Source of the DNA: Bacillota bacterium
Lineage (GTDB): Bacteria > Bacillota > DTU030 > DUMP01
Assembly (NCBI GenBank): GCA_012799605.1
Contig: JAAZKX010000017.1
Span: 1 to 50,381 of the forward strand
Direction of reading: 5' to 3'
Length of the DNA: 50,381 nucleotides
The notes beneath the pieces are model-generated. The model worked only from the letters and a program-made list of their open reading frames with translations. It searched no databases and had not been told where the DNA came from. The translations under genes were made by a program, and so were the position numbers. Shown here one piece after another: positions 4,745 through 46,980 of this stretch. Position 1 is the first letter of the stretch; every line of letters begins with the position of its first letter.

Positions 4745-5263
4745 CTATATCCCCCTGCCTAGCAGATAAATAATTATGCCTCCCAGCGTAATAATGATTA
4801 TGCCCAAAGCAGCGATCAGTAGTATATTGTCCCGGTTCAGCGGCCAGCAAAACGATATTTCCTGCCACGTTTTTTTGTTCATATTCACAAGTAAAATGCT
4901 GTTGGCCCGAAACGCCAGCTGGTATTCCAGCAGCTGGCGGCGCGTTCGTGCCGTCAATCTCGAATGAGTATGTCCGCTTTTTACCTCTACCACGTACTTG
5001 CGCCAACCTTTTTTTACAATGAAATCTGCCCTGATCGTAGTTGTGCGCGGCTTACCATTGATATAAACCAACGAGGATGCAGTAGGCTGGCGGGATACAA
5101 TTTGAAACCCTTGCCGTTCCAATAGATTTGCAGCCTCTTCTTCGGATCGTTTGGCTCCTTTAAATTGCCATTTCCGTAGCCAACGCCGCCAAACTGTGTG
5201 GCCAAAATAAAGGCCTGTCACACCCAATATAATCCCCAGAACAAACACGTCGCCCCGAGTCAC
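4745..5263 (-). CDS. Membrane-anchored PD-(D/E)XK nuclease-like protein
   Basis: 172-aa protein with no name I can assign. It has one membrane segment at the N-terminus (~4-22) and another at the C-terminus (~147-168), bracketing a soluble domain. That domain carries the pattern of PD-(D/E)XK nucleases: an acidic helix (SEEEAANLLERQGF, ~40-53), Asp80 in RADFIV, and Glu93-Val-Lys95 in VVEVKSG, followed by a helix with Gln110. The GTG start has GGGGGAG 8 nt upstream. It sits tightly between tlyA and nadK, so it is probably co-transcribed. Nuclease activity is inference from the motif; substrate unknown. Confidence 0.75.
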   Translation of the reverse strand: MTRGDVFVLGIILGVTGLYFGHTVWRRWLRKWQFKGAKRSEEEAANLLERQGFQIVSRQPTASSLVYINGKPRTTTIRADFIVKKGWRKYVVEVKSGHTHSRLTARTRRQLLEYQLAFRANSILLVNMNKKTWQEISFCWPLNRDNILLIAALGIIIITLGGIIIYLLGRGI

Positions 5264-5347: not shown

Positions 5348-6148
5348 TTAAGCCAGTTTAGCGTGGGCTTCCTTTACCACCTGATCGATGTCCAGGGTTG
5401 TTTTTCTGCAGCCAGCGCACGCATAAACTAGGTACTCGATATTCCCCTTGGCCCCAGTAATGGGTGAATAATCAAGACCGGCGCAGTTTAAGTGTTGATC
5501 AAGTAGCTCTACAATCGCTACCACTACTTCCCGGTGTAATAGGGGATCTCTAACAATTCCCCCTTTTCCGACCTTTCCCTTCCCGGCTTCAAACTGGGGT
5601 TTTATCAAGGCCACTATTTCCTTTCGGCCCACCAGCACATCGAGGATCGGCGGTATTACTTTCTTTAGCGAAATAAAAGATACATCGATACAAGCTATTT
5701 CCGGTCGGGGGACCAACTGCTGTGCGGTTAAGTATCTAATATTAGTGCGTTCCAATACTGTCACCCGGGGGTTCTGCCTCAGATCCCAGGCCAGTTGGCC
5801 ATAACCGACGTCAACCGCGTATACTTTGGCCGCTCCATGTTGTAAGGCACAGTCGGTAAACCCTCCGGTTGATGCCCCGGCATCCAAAACAATCTTACCT
5901 TTAAAATCCAGGCCGAAACTATGTATGGCTTTTTCCAGTTTTAGCCCACCACGGCTCACGTAGGGGGAATCATCTTCCAGCAACACCAGTTCGGCCTCAG
6001 TTCGAACTTTAGTTCCCGATTTATCAATAAGGCGTCCATCTACTAAAACCTTTCCGGCTAAAATATGGGCTTGAGCCCGGTCGCGGCTGGCTAGTAGACC
6101 CCGTTCTACCAGAAGTAAGTCGAGTCTTTTACGTCTCACTAATATCAC
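5348..6148 (-). CDS. tlyA: TlyA family rRNA 2'-O-methyltransferase
   Basis: 266 aa: N-terminal S4 RNA-binding domain (~5-65, RKRLDLLLVERGL) and an FtsJ-like SAM-dependent methyltransferase domain (DAGASTGGFTDC, ~88-99). TlyA proteins 2'-O-methylate cytidines in 16S and/or 23S rRNA. It overlaps the end of dxs by 20 nt from a GTG at 6148. A second in-frame GTG 9 nt later is also possible, since the AAGGG site lies between ideal spacings for both. The dxs-tlyA-nadK-argR-recN order is conserved in Firmicutes. Confidence 0.92.
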   Translation of the reverse strand: MILVRRKRLDLLLVERGLLASRDRAQAHILAGKVLVDGRLIDKSGTKVRTEAELVLLEDDSPYVSRGGLKLEKAIHSFGLDFKGKIVLDAGASTGGFTDCALQHGAAKVYAVDVGYGQLAWDLRQNPRVTVLERTNIRYLTAQQLVPRPEIACIDVSFISLKKVIPPILDVLVGRKEIVALIKPQFEAGKGKVGKGGIVRDPLLHREVVVAIVELLDQHLNCAGLDYSPITGAKGNIEYLVYACAGCRKTTLDIDQVVKEAHAKLA

Positions 6149-8039
6149 ATGCCCTTAATTTTATTTCGGCTGGGTTTTTAGAGGTAAAATAATTATAAAA
6201 ACTGGTTATAAGGCTTTGTTCATCGAGCCCGCACAGTTTCAACTGTTCTGCCCGGCTGCCATGGTCAATAAATTGATCTTTCACTCCGAACCGTTTTACC
6301 GGAATGTTTAGGCCAGCCTCATTAAATAGTTCTAAAACGGCACTGCCAAAGCCGCCGGCTAAAGCATGGTCTTCAACCGTAGCAATTAGCCGATGGCAAC
6401 GGGCCAAATCCAAGATCAAATCCCTCGGCAAAGGCTTCACGAAACGGATATCGCATACCCCGATATCAAGGCCCTGTTGGGTCAAAGCTTGAGCAGCTCT
6501 GAGGCTGGGCAATGCCATCGCCCCTGCAGCCAACACCATTCCACCAGCTCCTTCTTTTAGCAACTCTCCTTCAGCCCAACCAGCTGTGCCAATTATTTCC
6601 GGATCGGCTTCGACCTCGGCCCGAGGGTATCGAATCGCTACCGGCCCCGGGTAATCAACAGCGTAATTTAGCATTTGGTCTAATTCCCTCGCATCGCGGG
6701 GGGCCAATATATTTATGTTGGGTATATGACGCAAGTAGGCAAAATCAAATAATCCTTGGTGGGTAGCACCATCTTCACCGACAAGACCAGCCCGGTCTAA
6801 ACAAAAAGTAACAGGAAGGTTTTGTAAACAAACATCGTGGACAATCTGATCGTAAGCCCGCTGCAAAAACGTACTATAAATAGTTACCACCGGGCGCTTG
6901 CCCCCGGCTGCCAAAGCAGCTGCTAAAGTTACAGCATGTTGCTCGGCGATCCCAACATCGAATATCCGCTCCGGATAACGTTGGGCAAACTCGCTTAAGC
7001 CAGTACCGGAAATCATGGCTGCGCAGACCGCAACCAAATCCGGCTTCTTTTCCGCTAGTTTTAACATCGCCCGGGAAAAAGCATCTGTATAAGTTGTGCC
7101 GCCGCTTGCCAAAGGCTTGCCGCTGCTGACCTCAAAAGGGCCGATACCATGAAATTTGCAGGGCCTTTCTTCTGCTGGGGGATAACCCTTCCCTTTTTTG
7201 GTCAGTACATGGATCAGAACAGGCCCCCCTGCTTTACGGGCATGGGTAAAAACACTGCGCAATTCCGCAATGTTATGTCCGTCCAAGGGCCCAAAATAGG
7301 TGAAACCCAATTCTTCGAACAAAGTGCCCGGGATCAACATATAGCGCACCGCATCTTTAACCCGTTCCGCTGTTTTAGCCATTTGGGTTCCAATAGCCGG
7401 GATGCGTTTTAATAAAAACTCTATATCCTCCTTGAGCCGAAAATAGTTTGGATTCGATCTTAGTCTGGTTAAATACATGGATAACGCTCCTACATTAGGG
7501 CTTATCGACATTTTGTTGTCATTAAGTATAACTACAATTCGTTTTCTCAATTGTCCAGCGTGGTTTAAGGCCTCAAAGGCTAGGCCGGCTGTTAAAGAAC
7601 CATCGCCGATCACCGCGCTGATTACCCCATCCTGCCCTTCGAGGTCGCGGGCAATAGCATAACCTAAAGCAGCAGATATCGATGTGCTGCTATGGCCGAC
7701 CCCAAAATAATCATAGGAACTCTCGGAACGATTAGGGAACCCACTTAGGCCCCCAGACGTACGCAAACTAAAAAAGCGCTCCCGCCGGCCGGTTAGCAGC
7801 TTATGGGCATAAGCCTGATGGCCAACATCCCAAATTATCTTATCTTCCGGTTTATTAAAAACTGAATGCAAAGCTACAGTCAGCTCCACTGTCCCGAGGT
7901 TCGGGGCCAAATGTCCCCCATTGACCGCAACGGTATTTATTATTGTTTCTCTCAATTCCCGGCATAGAGCTTTTAATTCTGGTATATTGAGGCCCTCGAG
8001 GTCGGATGGGCTGTTAATTTGGGCTAATATTCCTGCCAT
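6129..8039 (-). CDS. dxs: 1-deoxy-D-xylulose-5-phosphate synthase
   Basis: First enzyme of the MEP isoprenoid pathway: pyruvate plus glyceraldehyde 3-phosphate to DXP, with thiamine diphosphate. 636 aa, full length. The ThDP/Mg motif GDGSLTAG...N is at ~145-175, the catalytic glutamate lies in VGIAEQHAV (~367), and the C-terminal transketolase domain is complete. GGAGGT is 8 nt before the ATG, which overlaps the upstream stop as TAATG. It is functionally linked to ispA about 2 kb upstream; the OLE RNA gene lies between the two. Confidence 0.97.
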   Translation of the reverse strand: MAGILAQINSPSDLEGLNIPELKALCRELRETIINTVAVNGGHLAPNLGTVELTVALHSVFNKPEDKIIWDVGHQAYAHKLLTGRRERFFSLRTSGGLSGFPNRSESSYDYFGVGHSSTSISAALGYAIARDLEGQDGVISAVIGDGSLTAGLAFEALNHAGQLRKRIVVILNDNKMSISPNVGALSMYLTRLRSNPNYFRLKEDIEFLLKRIPAIGTQMAKTAERVKDAVRYMLIPGTLFEELGFTYFGPLDGHNIAELRSVFTHARKAGGPVLIHVLTKKGKGYPPAEERPCKFHGIGPFEVSSGKPLASGGTTYTDAFSRAMLKLAEKKPDLVAVCAAMISGTGLSEFAQRYPERIFDVGIAEQHAVTLAAALAAGGKRPVVTIYSTFLQRAYDQIVHDVCLQNLPVTFCLDRAGLVGEDGATHQGLFDFAYLRHIPNINILAPRDARELDQMLNYAVDYPGPVAIRYPRAEVEADPEIIGTAGWAEGELLKEGAGGMVLAAGAMALPSLRAAQALTQQGLDIGVCDIRFVKPLPRDLILDLARCHRLIATVEDHALAGGFGSAVLELFNEAGLNIPVKRFGVKDQFIDHGSRAEQLKLCGLDEQSLITSFYNYFTSKNPAEIKLRACDISET

Positions 8040-8623
8040 TATTTTTTACCTCCACTACCGTTTTTTTTCAATACTTCCCGACCGCAAATACGCTCGACCA
8101 ACCAAAGAACACGTCCCATTTTCAATGTTATGATATTAGCATGCCAGAGTGAAAAATGTTTACCCACAGCCTTTCCGCCCACTGTCACAGCAGATACCAA
8201 GGCTACAATGGCTAAAGAAGCCCATTCTTCCTTGATAGGATAATGCTTGGCCAAACCAAACACAATTGTAGCTCCAACAGCCCCCGATAAAGTACCAGCA
8301 ATGTCACCTACCAGATCATTACACAAGTTGCTTATAGCGGGCGCCTGCCGCCGTAGGCGGACAGCTTCACGTGCGCCCAGGATTCTTTTCGCCGCCATGG
8401 CGTGAAGCGACGGTTCATCGGCTACCGTTACAGCTACCCCCATAACATCAAAAAGAATACCTAATCCTATAATAGCCAATAGGACTAGAAAAGCCAAAAA
8501 AAATGGTACCGTGCGTACCACATGTCCTGAACAAAAACCCAATAGCAAGGAAAGCGCCAGGGTTATCAAACCCACTTTCAATCCGTGGTGCCATGTACTG
8601 ATCCTCGTACTTTTGAGCTTCAC
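8039..8623 (-). CDS. oapA: OapA, OLE RNA-associated membrane protein
   Basis: 194 aa, about four predicted membrane segments (~17-35, 41-66, 104-125, 134-153). It carries a DxxxD motif (Asp103-Leu-Val-Gly-Asp107, in CNDLVGDIAG) and a polar FDVMGVAVTVADE stretch. Clostridial homologues are often labelled CorB/DUF21-like. Its position directly downstream of the ~630-nt structured non-coding gene and upstream of dxs matches OapA, the protein that binds OLE RNA and places it at the membrane in Bacillus halodurans. From memory, mutations near D104/G107 in that protein are disruptive; this motif aligns one residue away. GTG start; GGAG 9 nt upstream. Confidence 0.85.
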   Translation of the reverse strand: MKLKSTRISTWHHGLKVGLITLALSLLLGFCSGHVVRTVPFFLAFLVLLAIIGLGILFDVMGVAVTVADEPSLHAMAAKRILGAREAVRLRRQAPAISNLCNDLVGDIAGTLSGAVGATIVFGLAKHYPIKEEWASLAIVALVSAVTVGGKAVGKHFSLWHANIITLKMGRVLWLVERICGREVLKKNGSGGKK

Positions 8624-8654: not shown

Positions 8655-9287
8655 GAATATGATAAATAAAAGGTGGTAATAGGATGAGTAAATGCTGCGG
8701 CTTCAGGTCTAGTAGGTTTTCCCAACAATCACCGATTCGTCACCGAATAGGCGGTTTCCCTTTACGATTGCTCGATGCCGTTGCCGAACATCGGACTAGA
8801 TTGCCACTTAGCCCGCACTTCAATCCTCACCCTATCCCAACTGGGTTGGGCAGTCTAGGAGTTTTCCTCAACAACTCTTCCGCCTTCTAGCCTCTTTTGC
8901 ATAAAAGGTTTCAACAGCAGCAGCTTGTTATTTTTGGGCCCTAAAATAACGAGCCGGACCTGTATTCGCCCATTACACTCAAGGCAGGCTACGCTGCACA
9001 CAGCTTGCACCGCATGCAGGTTTTTATCCCAAGCCATAACCCAAAGGCTACGTACTTGGGTCTCCGCGGGAAGAGGAACAAGTCCCACATGCCGTTGTGG
9101 TTGCCCTTTTCCCTTAACTCCCAGCAGCAGCCGCTCACTGGGCGTAAGCAGCCACCACCAGAAACTTCATCGCTGTGCCCTCGACGGATTTTTAGGCCCG
9201 TTTTCAAAAGCGGAATCGCTGACTAGAATACTGCACCACCTGACCGCGAAAAATTTCTATCCCAAACATGATAATATTATTTGATTC
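8655..9287 (-). ncRNA. ole: OLE RNA (ornate large extremophilic RNA)
   Basis: About 630 nt without a credible reading frame, preceded by a strong promoter and followed by oapA. It contains stable hairpins: CCACA/TGTGG (9085-9100), GTTATTTT/AAAATAAC around GGGCCC (8927-8950), CCCAAC/GTTGGG (8836-8850), and a GNRA-capped ATTCG-GTGA-CGAAT (8735-8748, minus-strand reading). OLE RNA is known from extremophilic and anaerobic Firmicutes, averages about 600 nt, lies beside oapA and isoprenoid genes (ispA, dxs), and forms a membrane ribonucleoprotein linked to cold, alcohol and Mg2+ stress. The 3' end is uncertain (8640-8690). I identify it by context, size and structure, not by alignment. Confidence 0.85.
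8927..8950 (-). repeat. Inverted repeat inside OLE RNA
   Basis: Perfect 8-bp arms GTTATTTT and AAAATAAC flank the self-complementary GGGCCC. The stem extends outward by a wobble and two more pairs. Read as RNA this is one of the most stable helices of the OLE transcript. No T-run follows, so it is a structural helix rather than a terminator. Confidence 0.6.
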
Positions 9288-9293
9288 AAAGCC

Positions 9294-9322
9294 ATTATAC
9301 CATGGCTAAAAAGGCGATGCAA
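9294..9322 (-). promoter_or_regulatory. SigA-type promoter of OLE RNA
   Basis: Minus strand TTGCAT (9317-9322), a 17-nt spacer ending in TGG (extended -10), then a perfect TATAAT (9294-9299). It starts 6 nt after the PAP2-like stop codon and predicts a transcript start near 9287. It points straight into the non-coding region. Confidence 0.85.
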
Positions 9323-9327
9323 TGGAT

Positions 9328-9771
9328 TTAAAGGCGCATAAGAACCCCTACCAACACCCCTAAAATAGCCCCAACAAATACTTCAACTGGAGTATGCCCT
9401 ATTAGTTCGCGCAAACGTTCTTCTCGGATGCGCCCCTCCTTAAATACCTCATCTACAATTTTATTGAGAATAATTGCTTGAGCCCCGGCCGCCCGGCGCA
9501 CACCAGCCGAATCATACATCACTACCAAGGCCAAAACAGTTGCGATTGCCGCCTCAGCAGAAGAAAAACCCTTAACGCGTCCTACTGCCACAAACAGAGC
9601 AGTAACCAAAGCGGAATGCGAGCTAGGCATTCCCCCTGGACTGACCAAACGGGCAAAATCCCAATGCCGCCTACTGATTAATGTACTCGGCACCTTTAGT
9701 CCCTGCGCGATAGTCCAGGCAACTAGGGCTGTAAACAGGATTTTATTGCTCAATAGTCCGGATATATTCAT
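9328..9771 (-). CDS. Divergent PAP2-family membrane protein (YuiD-like)
   Basis: 147-aa small membrane protein of the DUF212/divergent PAP2 family. It has the motif SPGGMPSSHSALV (~43-55), resembling the PSGH block of type 2 phosphatidic acid phosphatases, a short basic/acidic segment, and a C-terminal HTPVEVFVGAILG block with the second conserved histidine. Three or four hydrophobic segments are visible. Lipid or prenyl-phosphate phosphatase activity is plausible beside ispA but unproven. GGAGG is 4 nt before the ATG. Confidence 0.85.
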   Translation of the reverse strand: MNISGLLSNKILFTALVAWTIAQGLKVPSTLISRRHWDFARLVSPGGMPSSHSALVTALFVAVGRVKGFSSAEAAIATVLALVVMYDSAGVRRAAGAQAIILNKIVDEVFKEGRIREERLRELIGHTPVEVFVGAILGVLVGVLMRL

Positions 9772-9811: not shown

Positions 9812-10711
9812 TCATTTTCGCCTCTGAATGGCATAATGGGCTATCGCCCTAAGCGGATCAGCCAGTTCATTAAATTCAGTTAGGCTTTCAACAGCTTCAA
9901 AAGCTAACCGCCTAGCCGCATTTTTAGCTTCCTGCAAGCCATGTACGGTCACATAAGTTAGTTTTTTATGAGTAGCATCGGTTTTAACCGGTTTGCCCAG
10001 TAGTTTGGGATCCCCAGTGGCATCCAAGATATCATCACAGATCTGAAAAGCTAAACCCAGCTTCTTACCGTATGTAGTCAGTAGCTTCAATTGTTTTAAG
10101 GTGGCACCGCCCAAAATGGCGCCGGCCCGTACTGAAGCCATTATTAAGGAACCGGTTTTGTGAGTATGGATATACTTTAACACAGAAGGTGCAGCTTGGG
10201 CTTTAATTGCTCCCTCTTGTTCAATATCTGCACTTTGCCCCCCTACCATACCTTCAGGGCCAGCCGCGGAAGCAATTTCCAGCACCACCTTAAGTACTTT
10301 CTCGGGCTTAACCGAATCCAACTTATAGGATGCAGCCAATATAGTAAACGCGTGGGTCAAAAGGGCATCGCCGGCCAGCAGTGCCTGAGCCTCGCCGAAT
10401 ACTTTATGGCTTGTCGGCTTACCGCGGCGCCAATCATCATCATCCATAACGGGCAGATCATCATGAATAAGGGAATAAGTATGTATAAATTCAATGGCAC
10501 AAGCTGCCGGCATAGCCACCTGAGGGTTTCCACCTACCACTTCAGCGCTGGCCAAGGTTAATATGGGTCTTAGCCTTTTTCCGCCCGCAAATAAACTATA
10601 ACGCATGGCTTCTCCTAGCCGCTCCGCCTCCGCGGGAAGCGAAGGAATATAGGTCTTTAATGCTTTTTCTATCTCTAAGGCCTTTTCATGTAAATATTGC
10701 TTCAAGTCCAT
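9812..10711 (-). CDS. ispA: Farnesyl/geranyl diphosphate synthase (polyprenyl synthetase)
   Basis: Trans-prenyltransferase condensing IPP with allylic diphosphates. About 299 aa. The first aspartate-rich motif is HDDLPVMDDDD (~88-98), the second is ICDDILD (~226-232), and the GKRLRP substrate motif is present near 45. The two residues between the paired aspartates of the first motif are the short-chain bacterial FPP-synthase type. The ATG at 10711 is chosen because GGAGGAG lies 8 nt upstream; a GTG at 10720 is alternative. It follows xseA-xseB, the usual xseA-xseB-ispA operon. Confidence 0.95.
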   Translation of the reverse strand: MDLKQYLHEKALEIEKALKTYIPSLPAEAERLGEAMRYSLFAGGKRLRPILTLASAEVVGGNPQVAMPAACAIEFIHTYSLIHDDLPVMDDDDWRRGKPTSHKVFGEAQALLAGDALLTHAFTILAASYKLDSVKPEKVLKVVLEIASAAGPEGMVGGQSADIEQEGAIKAQAAPSVLKYIHTHKTGSLIMASVRAGAILGGATLKQLKLLTTYGKKLGLAFQICDDILDATGDPKLLGKPVKTDATHKKLTYVTVHGLQEAKNAARRLAFEAVESLTEFNELADPLRAIAHYAIQRRK

Positions 10712-10716
10712 CTGTA

Positions 10717-10962
10717 TCACTCCTCCTCGGATTCCAATTCAGGAGGCAGGGGCTGATCGTCAAAATTAATAACCTGCAAAGTCTTTTCAGCTTCACCGAG
10801 TAATCCCTCGCAATACTTAAGCAGCCCTTTTCCCTCCTTGAAAGCCGTCAGCGTATCTTCCAAACTTAAATTTCCCTTCTCCAGCTGTTCTGTCAGTTGT
10901 TCCAGCCGTTTAAATGCTTCTTCAAAAGTCAGCCGTTCTTTGCGCTTATTTTTTTTAGGCAT
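10717..10962 (-). CDS. xseB: Exodeoxyribonuclease VII small subunit
   Basis: 81-aa helical subunit of ExoVII. It shows the conserved block TFEEAFKRLEQLTEQLEKG followed by LSLEDTLTAFKEG. The second ATG (10962) is used because AAGGAG lies 9 nt before it; the first ATG touches the ribosome site. It overlaps the end of xseA by 8 nt, consistent with translational coupling of the two subunits. Confidence 0.95.
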   Translation of the reverse strand: MPKKNKRKERLTFEEAFKRLEQLTEQLEKGNLSLEDTLTAFKEGKGLLKYCEGLLGEAEKTLQVINFDDQPLPPELESEEE

Positions 10963-16532: not shown

Positions 16533-17681
16533 TCAACCTCGCCCTAGTGGCAAACCGACCAACCCAACCAAAGCTGTTATGGCTAAAAAAAATAGCAAGG
16601 CCACAACCCCTACAGTAGCAAAAATAAGCCCGAGGCTATTGCCCAGCCCCCCTAAACAGCGGGCAACTTTTGAATCGGCAATAGGTTCTGCCAGGGCAGC
16701 TGCCAATTTGTATACAAATATCAAGGCCAGAATTTTAATCAAGGGAAAAGAACATATCATCAACAGCACCGCAAGCCCAACTCCACTCACAGCAGTTTGT
16801 ACTGCGGCCGAGTAACCGATCACAGCTTCGACAGCATCAGCAAACAGTTTTCCCACCACTGGAATAAACGAAGCGGCTACAAATTTCGTGCTTCGCATAG
16901 CAACCCCATCGACCACTTTTCCTGCTGCCCCTTGAATAGTGCTTATTCCGACAAAGACACACAGCGCTAGGCCCAAAAATGTAACACAGATCCCGGCTAT
17001 AAATTTAGCCAAGCGCCCTACATTAATCTGAGGAACCACGTAAGTCACCAAGTGCAATACTGTGCTCAAGTACAGCAAGGGAAAAATTACATCCCTGGTA
17101 AGGGCGCCCAGTATAGTGATTGTGGCTAGTAAAAATGGATGCATCAAAGCTGTGCTGGCTACAGATCCGCTGGCTACCAACATGGTGAACAAAACAGGCA
17201 GTAGTGCCTGCATAAATGAAACCATGTTGCCAACAGCCGTTCTACCCGTCCGCAAGGCCACATTAAAACTTTGAATGGCGATCCCCATAATGGCCACAAA
17301 AACAAGTGTTTGGGCGATCTGTACTGTTTCTTGATTTTTAAAGCTTTGTTCCAACGCTGTAAGTAGTGCGGCAAATACCACCATAACCAATAGCTGTCCT
17401 AAAAGTTTAGACCCTAGCACCACTTCATGAAAAAAATATTTTAACAGACCGTTTATAGCAGCTCGCCAATCGATTCCTTGGCCACTTTTAGCTCGGGCAA
17501 ACAGGTTTCTCCATTGAAAATCAGGGATAAAATCAGTCCAGTTGTTTTCGAACTCCTTCACCGTATCCTCCAGTGCTCTCAAGTCAAGATCATGTTGCCC
17601 TTCGCCAGCGCCGGTTTGAGCATAAACAGGCAGTGCTATAATAAAAATCAAGATAGTTATGATAAAAAATTCCTTATACAC
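16533..17681 (-). CDS. spoIIIAE: SpoIIIAE, channel membrane component
   Basis: About 382 aa. A signal peptide (cleavage near ALPVYAQ) is followed by a soluble segment and a polytopic membrane domain of roughly 7-8 segments starting near residue 90. A GTG at 17681 is chosen because GAGGTG lies 6 nt upstream and it gives a clean signal peptide; a GTG at 17690 is also in frame. SpoIIIAE is the largest membrane member of the spoIIIA channel. Confidence 0.94.
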   Translation of the reverse strand: MYKEFFIITILIFIIALPVYAQTGAGEGQHDLDLRALEDTVKEFENNWTDFIPDFQWRNLFARAKSGQGIDWRAAINGLLKYFFHEVVLGSKLLGQLLVMVVFAALLTALEQSFKNQETVQIAQTLVFVAIMGIAIQSFNVALRTGRTAVGNMVSFMQALLPVLFTMLVASGSVASTALMHPFLLATITILGALTRDVIFPLLYLSTVLHLVTYVVPQINVGRLAKFIAGICVTFLGLALCVFVGISTIQGAAGKVVDGVAMRSTKFVAASFIPVVGKLFADAVEAVIGYSAAVQTAVSGVGLAVLLMICSFPLIKILALIFVYKLAAALAEPIADSKVARCLGGLGNSLGLIFATVGVVALLFFLAITALVGLVGLPLGRG

Positions 17682-29101: not shown

Positions 29102-29200
29102 GTATCTCCCCTAGGGGTGCCCCTAAGGTGGGGCTGAGATAAGGGATCTATCCCTTGACCCTGAAACCTGATCTGGGTAATGCCAGCGTAGGGAAGTGGA
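29102..29200 (+). promoter_or_regulatory. TPP riboswitch (THI element)
   Basis: All conserved blocks are present in order: GGGGTGCC, GGGGCTGAGA, the variable P3 arm AAGGGATC...ATCCCTT, ACCTGATCTGGGTAATG and CCAGCGTAGGGAA. It binds thiamine diphosphate and here controls a terminator 19 nt downstream, so thiD-tenA are off when TPP is plentiful. Confidence 0.97.
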
Positions 29201-29218
29201 ACAATGCACTTGCAATGT

Positions 29219-29250: not shown

Positions 29251-29304
29251 TCGGTTATTATTTATTCTAGGACATGCTATTTAGTATAGAAAGGTGTGTT
29301 GGCG

Positions 29305-30102
29305 ATGAAAATTTCCCATGTGCTTACCATTGCTGGCTCGGATTCAAGCGGCGGGGCTGGCATCCAAGCAGATCTTAAAACCTTCACCGTACTGGGGGCA
29401 TATGGCATGAGTGTTTTGGCTGCCGTTACCGCCCAAAACACTTTGGGGGTACAAGGAGTATATCCTTTACCGCCGGATGCTGTCGGTGAGCAGATGGAAT
29501 CTGTCTTTAGCGATATACGTGTAGACAGCGTAAAAACCGGAATGCTATTTTCGGCCCCGATAATTAGCGAGGTTGCGGCGAAATTGCATAAATTTGAGGT
29601 CAACAATCTGGTGGTCGACCCGGTGATGGTAGCCAAGGGCGGAAGCAGGCTATTGCAAGAAGAGGCTACTGAAGCTCTCATCGATAAACTAATGCCCTTG
29701 ACTACAGTAATCACACCCAATATTCCCGAGGCTGAGATTTTAACCGGGATTAAAATCACAACTATATCCGATATGAAAACAGCAGCTAAACGACTAGTCT
29801 CTATGGGTGTGCAAGCAGCAGTTGTCAAAGGCGGACATCTGGCAACCGAGCCAGTTGACATCCTCTATGATGGGGACAAAATCAAGGAGTATCCCGGCAA
29901 GCGCTGGCAAACTAAAAACACTCATGGCACAGGTTGCACTTTCGCAGCTGCTCTAGCTGTAGGGCTGGCTCAAAAACTTCCCCTGGCTGCTGCCGTGCAA
30001 CAAGCTAAGGATTTTGTCAGCTTAGCTATCGCCCGAGCAGTACCGATCGGTCATGGCCATGGCCCGACTAATCATCTGGCTTGGTTGGAAAAACAAAAAT
30101 AA
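29305..30102 (+). CDS. thiD: HMP / HMP-phosphate kinase ThiD
   Basis: About 265 aa ribokinase-fold enzyme that makes HMP-PP for thiamine synthesis by two successive phosphorylations. [16 protein letters not shown] (~9-24) binds the pyrimidine and [12 protein letters not shown] (~209-220) is the anion hole with catalytic cysteine/aspartate region typical of ThiD. The ATG at 29305 is used (AAAGGTG 8 nt upstream), not the GTG at 29296. First gene under the TPP riboswitch. Confidence 0.96.
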
Positions 30103-30116
30103 GGAGATGGTATAAA

Positions 30117-30746
30117 ATGCTGGCTAATGAATTGTTTGATAAAAACATGGATATTGTTAAATCATGTTTACAGCATCCTTTTGTAGCCGGAATTGCCTCC
30201 GGCAGCTTGGAACGCGAGAAATTTGTTTACTATATGTCCCAAGACGCGTTTTACCTTACCGCTTATGCCCGCGCTTTTGCTTTAGGGATCGCCAAGAGCC
30301 CGGATGAAAAGGCGATGAGAATGTTTAAATCACAAGTCGATGCAACTTTTGCCGAACTAAACCTCCATGCCGGTTATTCTAATAAATGGGGGTTTTCATT
30401 GGATGTTTCCCCGGCTAAAGCAACCTTGAACTACACCAACTTTTTAGAACGGGTAGCTGCTTTTGACGATATCGGGTCTATCGCAGCAGCTACTTTGCCA
30501 TGTAGCATTCTGTACGCATATTTGGGCACCGAGCTGTCCCAAGACTTTAATCCTTCAACACCCTATAAAAGCTGGATAGACACTTACTCGTCAGCCGAAT
30601 TTAAACAAGGAACTGCTGTATTAGAATCTCTGGTAAATGAATACGGTGTTGACGAACACAAAATAAGGACTTATTATCGCAGGGCAATGGAATTAGAATA
30701 CGATTTTTTTGCTGCTGCTTATAAAAGTACCAACAACAAAATTTAA
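30117..30746 (+). CDS. tenA: TenA, aminopyrimidine aminohydrolase (thiaminase II)
   Basis: 209-aa helical enzyme that salvages the thiamine pyrimidine from degraded thiamine. The catalytic cysteine lies in ATLPCSILYAYLG (~134), and substrate-pocket residues around YMSQDAFYLTAYARAFA and YSSAEF are present. The ATG at 30117 with AAGGAG 10 nt upstream is preferred over an earlier frame overlapping thiD. Together with thiD it forms a salvage operon without thiC or thiE, so thiazole coupling must be encoded elsewhere or precursors imported. Confidence 0.94.
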   Translation: MLANELFDKNMDIVKSCLQHPFVAGIASGSLEREKFVYYMSQDAFYLTAYARAFALGIAKSPDEKAMRMFKSQVDATFAELNLHAGYSNKWGFSLDVSPAKATLNYTNFLERVAAFDDIGSIAAATLPCSILYAYLGTELSQDFNPSTPYKSWIDTYSSAEFKQGTAVLESLVNEYGVDEHKIRTYYRRAMELEYDFFAAAYKSTNNKI

Positions 30747-46786: not shown

Positions 46787-46980
46787 AAAAAAATGCCCCA
46801 CCATGCCGTGGGTCGGCTGTTTTTGAAGCTGCTCTCCCAAGCAGGTGGGTGCCCGCCTGACAAATTTGTACGTCCCCCCTAAGGGGCGTGTACGTACTTA
46901 TCAGAGACAAAGCTCCCTCTTCAAAGGTGTTGGCTCAAAACTAGCCGACTCACCACGTACACAGCAGGGTTTGTTTGGTC
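46787..46980 (-). ncRNA. ssrS: 6S RNA (6S-1/BsrA type)
   Basis: About 194 nt. A consensus promoter starts it and a terminator hairpin (CCCAC-GGCATG-GTGGG) with T7 ends it (46787-46793). The 5' and 3' arms pair: 46943-46957 with 46807-46818 (CGTGG and GTCGGCT, 3-nt bulge), and a long central hairpin has GTACGT/ACGTAC arms (46868-46897) around GCCCC/GGGGG. Length and rod shape fit 6S RNA, and the place between aspS and tcdA (yrvM) is exactly that of bsrA in Bacillus subtilis. 6S RNA holds the SigA RNA polymerase holoenzyme. Confidence 0.9.

Follow-up and report, generated by a model that had tools for sequence, protein, structure and literature searches.

OLE RNAs are among the largest structured bacterial RNAs, and full-length members are known from Halalkalibacterium halodurans, Clostridium acetobutylicum and C. 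botulinum. In H. halodurans, the partner protein OapB is essential and binds the hairpin P13 of the RNA. Hairpin P12.2 also belongs to the OapB-binding region (PMC12265935), a part of the RNA (domain 2) that the published structures leave out. A published survey reported OLE in 2,822 Bacillota genomes (PMC11332333). OapB occurs in about 60% of OLE species, and the same survey singles out the reduced-genome RF39 and TANB77 clades, home of OLE variants 1 and 2, as OLE species without this protein; pseudogenes are not mentioned in its text (PMC11332333).

We analyzed a stretch of 50,381 nucleotides from the draft genome of an uncultured Bacillota bacterium (assembly GCA_012799605.1, contig JAAZKX010000017.1; hereafter the window), whose minus strand carries an OLE RNA. 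This RNA has the same length and the whole secondary structure of the full-length OLE RNAs from the three species named above. It shares with them the P4, P5, P6 and P9.3 dimer loops, the kink turn, the GNRA hairpins P12.2 and P13, the possession of its own promoter, and a site between ispA and oapA-dxs. It differs from them in that P7 and P8 are short, a trait common to its family, and in that the genome has no intact OapB. Short P7 and P8 and the absence of OapB are also features of OLE variants 1 and 2; however, unlike these variants, the RNA described here retains P7, P8, P9 and the P13 end, it matches the full Rfam model, and OapC is present (PMC11332333). Judged by its sequence, the RNA is one more member of an established class (PMC9723947, PMC11332333, PMC12265935, PMC12286853, PMC12054373).

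Identity and structure of the OLE RNA

The earlier note had read the minus strand of 8655-9287 as an OLE RNA, had proposed a search with the Rfam covariance model, and had named the lack of a match together with conserved codon periodicity as the outcome that would speak against its reading. In the covariance-model scan, RF01071 matched the minus strand at 8657-9255 over model positions 1-616, which is the full length of the model. The score of 502.5 bits (E=1.5e-144) exceeded the cut-off of 50, and no conserved reading frame was found in the region. The RNA is 599 nt long by the model; the slightly larger interval of the earlier note spans the expected transcription start to the 3' end of the Rfam model. 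This is the single OLE in the genome (a 1.57-Mb draft with 89 contigs and a completeness of 92.5%), and the bit score of the RNA is higher than those in the congeners G001 and G002. The description of OLE as rare was overstated, given the count of the published survey and the presence of OLE in 62 of the 81 genomes that we sampled.

Among the model pairs for which both sides are present, 146 of 156 are standard pairs in this RNA. Covariation was calculated from a MAFFT alignment of 39 sequences that was not fitted to the structure. Across these sequences 87.5% of the cells are paired, and 112 pairs have changes on both sides; in 200 column shuffles such pairs numbered 81 on average and never more than 88. 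When one arm is slid by 1-3 columns, pairing falls to 40-46%. By these measures of sequence change the secondary structure is real and evolves as an RNA. The folding energy of the minus strand is -226.5 kcal/mol (z = -4.1 relative to shuffles; 0 of 100 shuffles were as stable), and P12.2 (GCAA) and P13 (GUGA) are both GNRA-capped, in agreement with the earlier description of several stable hairpins, one of them with a GNRA cap. A terminal stem, P1, is absent from the Rfam structure; its 3' arm (8671-8677) forms 7 pairs with 9235-9241. Over the 39 sequences, 97.8% of the P1 pairs are standard, with changes on both sides in 6 of the 7 pairs. Most family members have 9-10 pairs in P1, whereas here the stem ends after 7, with mismatches at the two positions beyond.

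The sequence elements of the dimer contacts are all present, and a dimer is predicted. The A-rich P4 loop, CCUAAAAA (9189-9196, minus strand, as are all elements of the RNA given here), is near-invariant; in solved OLE structures this loop forms dimer bridge B1 (PMC12286853). The P5 loop GCCCA (9139-9143) contains a GCC complementary to the GGC of the P6 loop (9091-9093), and G113, C116, G163, G164 and C165 in these two loops, which form the L5/L6 dimer contact (PMC12286853, PMC12265935), are invariant. The palindrome GGGCCC of L9.3 (8936-8941) corresponds to the self-complementary kissing loop of dimer bridge B3 (PMC12286853). The near-invariant J4a/5 strand, CGAUGAAG (9165-9172), belongs to the OapC-binding kink turn (PMC9723947, PMC12286853), and the J6/7 strand GGAGA (9061-9065) is the opposite side of this turn in the cryo-EM model (PMC12286853). 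Both strands are conserved and match the OapC site (PMC9723947) as well as the cryo-EM kink turn (PMC12286853). In the P12.2 hairpin (8773-8793), 8 of 8 pairs are standard. The Rfam register for P13 gave few pairs when projected on the alignment; this hairpin was therefore read directly as CCUAUUCG-GUGA-CGAAUCGG (8732-8751), with 7 of 8 pairs formed, which is inside the range of 6 to 8 found in relatives.

The predicted OLE promoter (9294-9322, minus strand) consists of the -35 element TTGCAT (9322-9317), a 17-nt spacer, and the extended -10 element TGGTATAAT, in which a TG extension precedes the hexamer TATAAT (9299-9294). The same element, TTGCnn followed after 16-18 nt by TGnTATAAT, precedes OLE in almost every relative from the family and the class. 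Transcription would be expected to start near 9287. The strong dedicated promoter of the earlier note is indeed OLE's own and conserved; however, its strength rests on the extended -10, the -35 being weak, and because of this weak -35 the promoter was missed in an automatic promoter scan. No clear terminator was found between the OLE end and the oapA start; co-transcription and processing of the 3' end, both of which are reported for H. halodurans, are therefore likely.

Two other identities of the stretch were weighed. A missed protein-coding gene might be suggested by open frames that reach 119 aa; however, these frames have no Pfam match, and no reading frame stays open across 12 relatives. 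The longest open stretch is 132 codons (shuffled sequence: 95th percentile 126, maximum 188), and the open frames are no longer than in shuffles, as expected from the statement that 8655-9287 holds no credible gene. With RF01071 matching and every frame lost in relatives, this candidate is ruled out, and we give it practically no chance. The stretch could also be a cis-regulatory, riboswitch-like leader of oapA and not a separate RNA, a reading favored by the start of oapA 33 nt past the end of the OLE model, the lack of a clear terminator between them, and the likely co-transcription. We consider this very improbable: the match is full length to a class of abundant, separately accumulating RNAs of about 630 nt (PMC9723947), and the conserved elements of the studied OLE RNAs serve in protein binding and dimer formation. 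None of the observations speaks against an OLE identity. By analogy with those RNAs, the region almost certainly encodes a full-length OLE RNA that would be functional.

Elsewhere in the window, a TPP riboswitch (29103-29211, plus strand; RF00059, 76.4 bits) precedes two genes, one for a phosphomethylpyrimidine kinase (29296-30102) and one for a TenA-family protein (30081-30746). A 6S RNA (46791-46973, minus strand; RF00013, 83.7 bits) is flanked by an aspartyl-type tRNA synthetase gene and a gene of the ThiF family; the listed start of the latter overlaps the RNA, and its true start is probably further in.

Gene neighborhood and partner proteins

The gene order xseB-ispA-DUF212-OLE-oapA-dxs-tlyA, an isoprenoid/DNA-repair cluster, is common to the family. 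All of the following genes are on the minus strand: ispA, encoding a polyprenyl synthetase (9812-10720; PF00348, E=5.6e-60), the DUF212 (divergent PAP2) gene (9328-9771; PF02681, E=1.6e-48), oapA (8039-8623), and dxs, encoding 1-deoxy-D-xylulose-5-phosphate synthase (6129-8039; PF13292, E=7.9e-120). The placement of the RNA between ispA and dxs was thus right as to the neighborhood, but ispA is not adjacent, as the DUF212 gene intervenes. The position of the DUF212 gene is the same throughout the family members examined and in several class and phylum relatives, and the gene is a possible further functional neighbor of OLE. In the tlyA-nadK gap, a 172-aa ORF (4745-5263, minus strand) has a borderline match to PD-(D/E)XK nucleases (21.9 bits, cut-off 22), and G001, G002, G003 and G005 have a homolog at the corresponding position.

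The DxxxD membrane protein that had been noted directly downstream of the RNA is the 194-aa product of oapA. Its DxxxD residues, D103 (codon at about 8315-8317) and D107 (codon at about 8303-8305), are invariant in 11 homologs and correspond to D100 and D104 of the H. halodurans protein. NCBIfam and Pfam contain no model naming OapA, and the Pfam CNNM match is sub-threshold (18.1 bits, cut-off 28.4). The AlphaFold2 model has long membrane helices at moderate confidence (pLDDT 77). Its best solved match is the CNNM protein MtCorB, 7m1t (E=0.036, probability 1.00); the match to the CorC membrane domain is weaker. The protein is OapA, with the CNNM/CorB-like fold published for OapA here predicted from the model. 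The DxxxD motif and the predicted CorB/CorC-like membrane fold are shared with the MpfA-CNNM family of Mg2+ transporters; unlike that family, OapA has no CBS or CorC domains, scores below the CNNM cut-off, and is tied to OLE RNA. OapA has a dN/dS of 0.09-0.12 relative to the congeners and is therefore under selection.

Of the partner set OapA, OapB and OapC invoked in the earlier note, OapA and OapC are present, but OapB is degraded in this genome. The OapC gene is intact between rpoC and rpsL; its product has B. subtilis YbxF as best PDB match, keeps the conserved glycine, and, like OapA, retains a low dN/dS. The ribosomal protein bS21 is encoded in the same genome. No MpfA-type protein (CNNM over the cut-off together with CBS and CorC) was found in the draft genome, where the only match was OapA itself. 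In our set of 81, strong CNNM proteins are encoded by 17 of the 62 genomes with OLE and by 15 of the 19 without it (p=1e-4). These counts and the absence of MpfA fit the published anticorrelation between OLE and MpfA.

The oapB remnant

The oapB site is outside the window, between map and infA on contig C23 (about 16991-17205) of the same genome, G000. The map-infA interval measures 219 nt in G000 versus 311-312 nt in the congeners G001 and G002 and the family members G003, G004, G006 and G007. All six of these relatives have an intact OapB of 97-98 aa, for which OLE-associated protein B (7k9b) is the best match among solved structures. In the remnant, about 93 nt are missing over the KOW core, and the rest contains an in-frame TGA at a position that is a sense codon in the congeners; in addition, Tyr replaces the near-invariant His54. 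Over the only 28 codons that can be compared, the dN of the remnant to G001 is 0.27, close to the 0.24 between intact copies and compatible with a recent loss.

We searched the 81 genomes using an alignment of true OapB proteins. One copy each was found in 68 of the 81 and a second copy in none; G000 is the only genome in which the match is interrupted by a stop. Each of the 12 other class members sampled has an intact gene, and 58 of the 62 OLE-bearing genomes have an OapB without inner stops. The OLE-bearing genomes G015, G024 and G045 gave no OapB match; each of them encodes a CNNM protein. The Pfam KOW model (PF00467) was uninformative as a finder of OapB: it gave just two matches, in G002, which has an intact OapB.

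In the lineage of G000, OapB seems to be a recent loss, as read from one draft genome that is 92.5% complete; a second copy might lie in the missing 7.5%. The protein is not a defining feature of OLE, and many accepted OLE species are without it. While OLE species without OapB are already known, no case of a full-length OLE together with an oapB in decay was found in the OLE literature examined.

With a single genome in 89 contigs and incomplete, errors of the draft assembly might have produced the damage, and the organism might have a normal OapB. We regard this as unlikely, in view of the several kinds of difference (the deletion of about 93 nt, the in-frame TGA, and the replacement of His by Tyr) between flanking genes map and infA that are both intact. 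Moreover, TGA serves as a regular stop codon in this organism (xseB, ispA, adk, truA), and a second oapB copy that might have stood in was seen in no genome examined. If the loss is real, OLE itself could be on its way out, with a non-functional particle and an RNA kept for now. The essentiality of OapB in H. halodurans gives this idea some force, as the gene is broken here and the particle could be altered; in addition, two outer P1 pairs are gone, and the RNA has 22 private differences, the joint highest number in the family. However, only 1 of these 22 is in a near-invariant column, and G005, with an intact OapB, has equally many. The 146 standard pairs, the bit score above those of both congeners, and the low dN/dS of OapA and OapC also argue against decay, for which we see little chance. 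The P12.2 and P13 hairpins, OapB sites elsewhere, are preserved despite the remnant and remain within the range of relatives. We are evenly divided on the full reading, in which OapB would have been lost recently and naturally while selection maintains OLE, OapA and OapC, in a lineage without MpfA as a fallback.

Proposed particle and its significance

By analogy to H. halodurans and to the clostridial OLE structures, the RNA would be made at a high level from its own promoter and from the operon, and would be processed at its 3' end. Two copies would pair through the P4, P5/P6 and P9.3 loops, after which OapA, as a CNNM-like membrane protein, would anchor the dimer at the membrane. OapC would clamp the kink turn and bS21 would dock in domain 1. 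The particle may help the cell to adapt to cold, alcohol, Mg2+ and poor carbon sources; its probable route of action is through OapA, on the handling of divalent metals. Since oapB has decayed in this species, its particle most likely works without OapB.

Another OLE RNA by itself adds little to the knowledge of the class. If the recent loss of OapB is true, a full-length OLE particle would be able to work without OapB, and something other than OapB binding would account for the conservation of the P12.2 and P13 hairpins. A full-length OLE with a just-decayed oapB, in a genome whose close relatives have the gene, offers a natural comparison for the role of OapB; the same comparison between oapB-decayed and oapB-intact relatives may serve to recognize other uses of the P12.2/P13 region.
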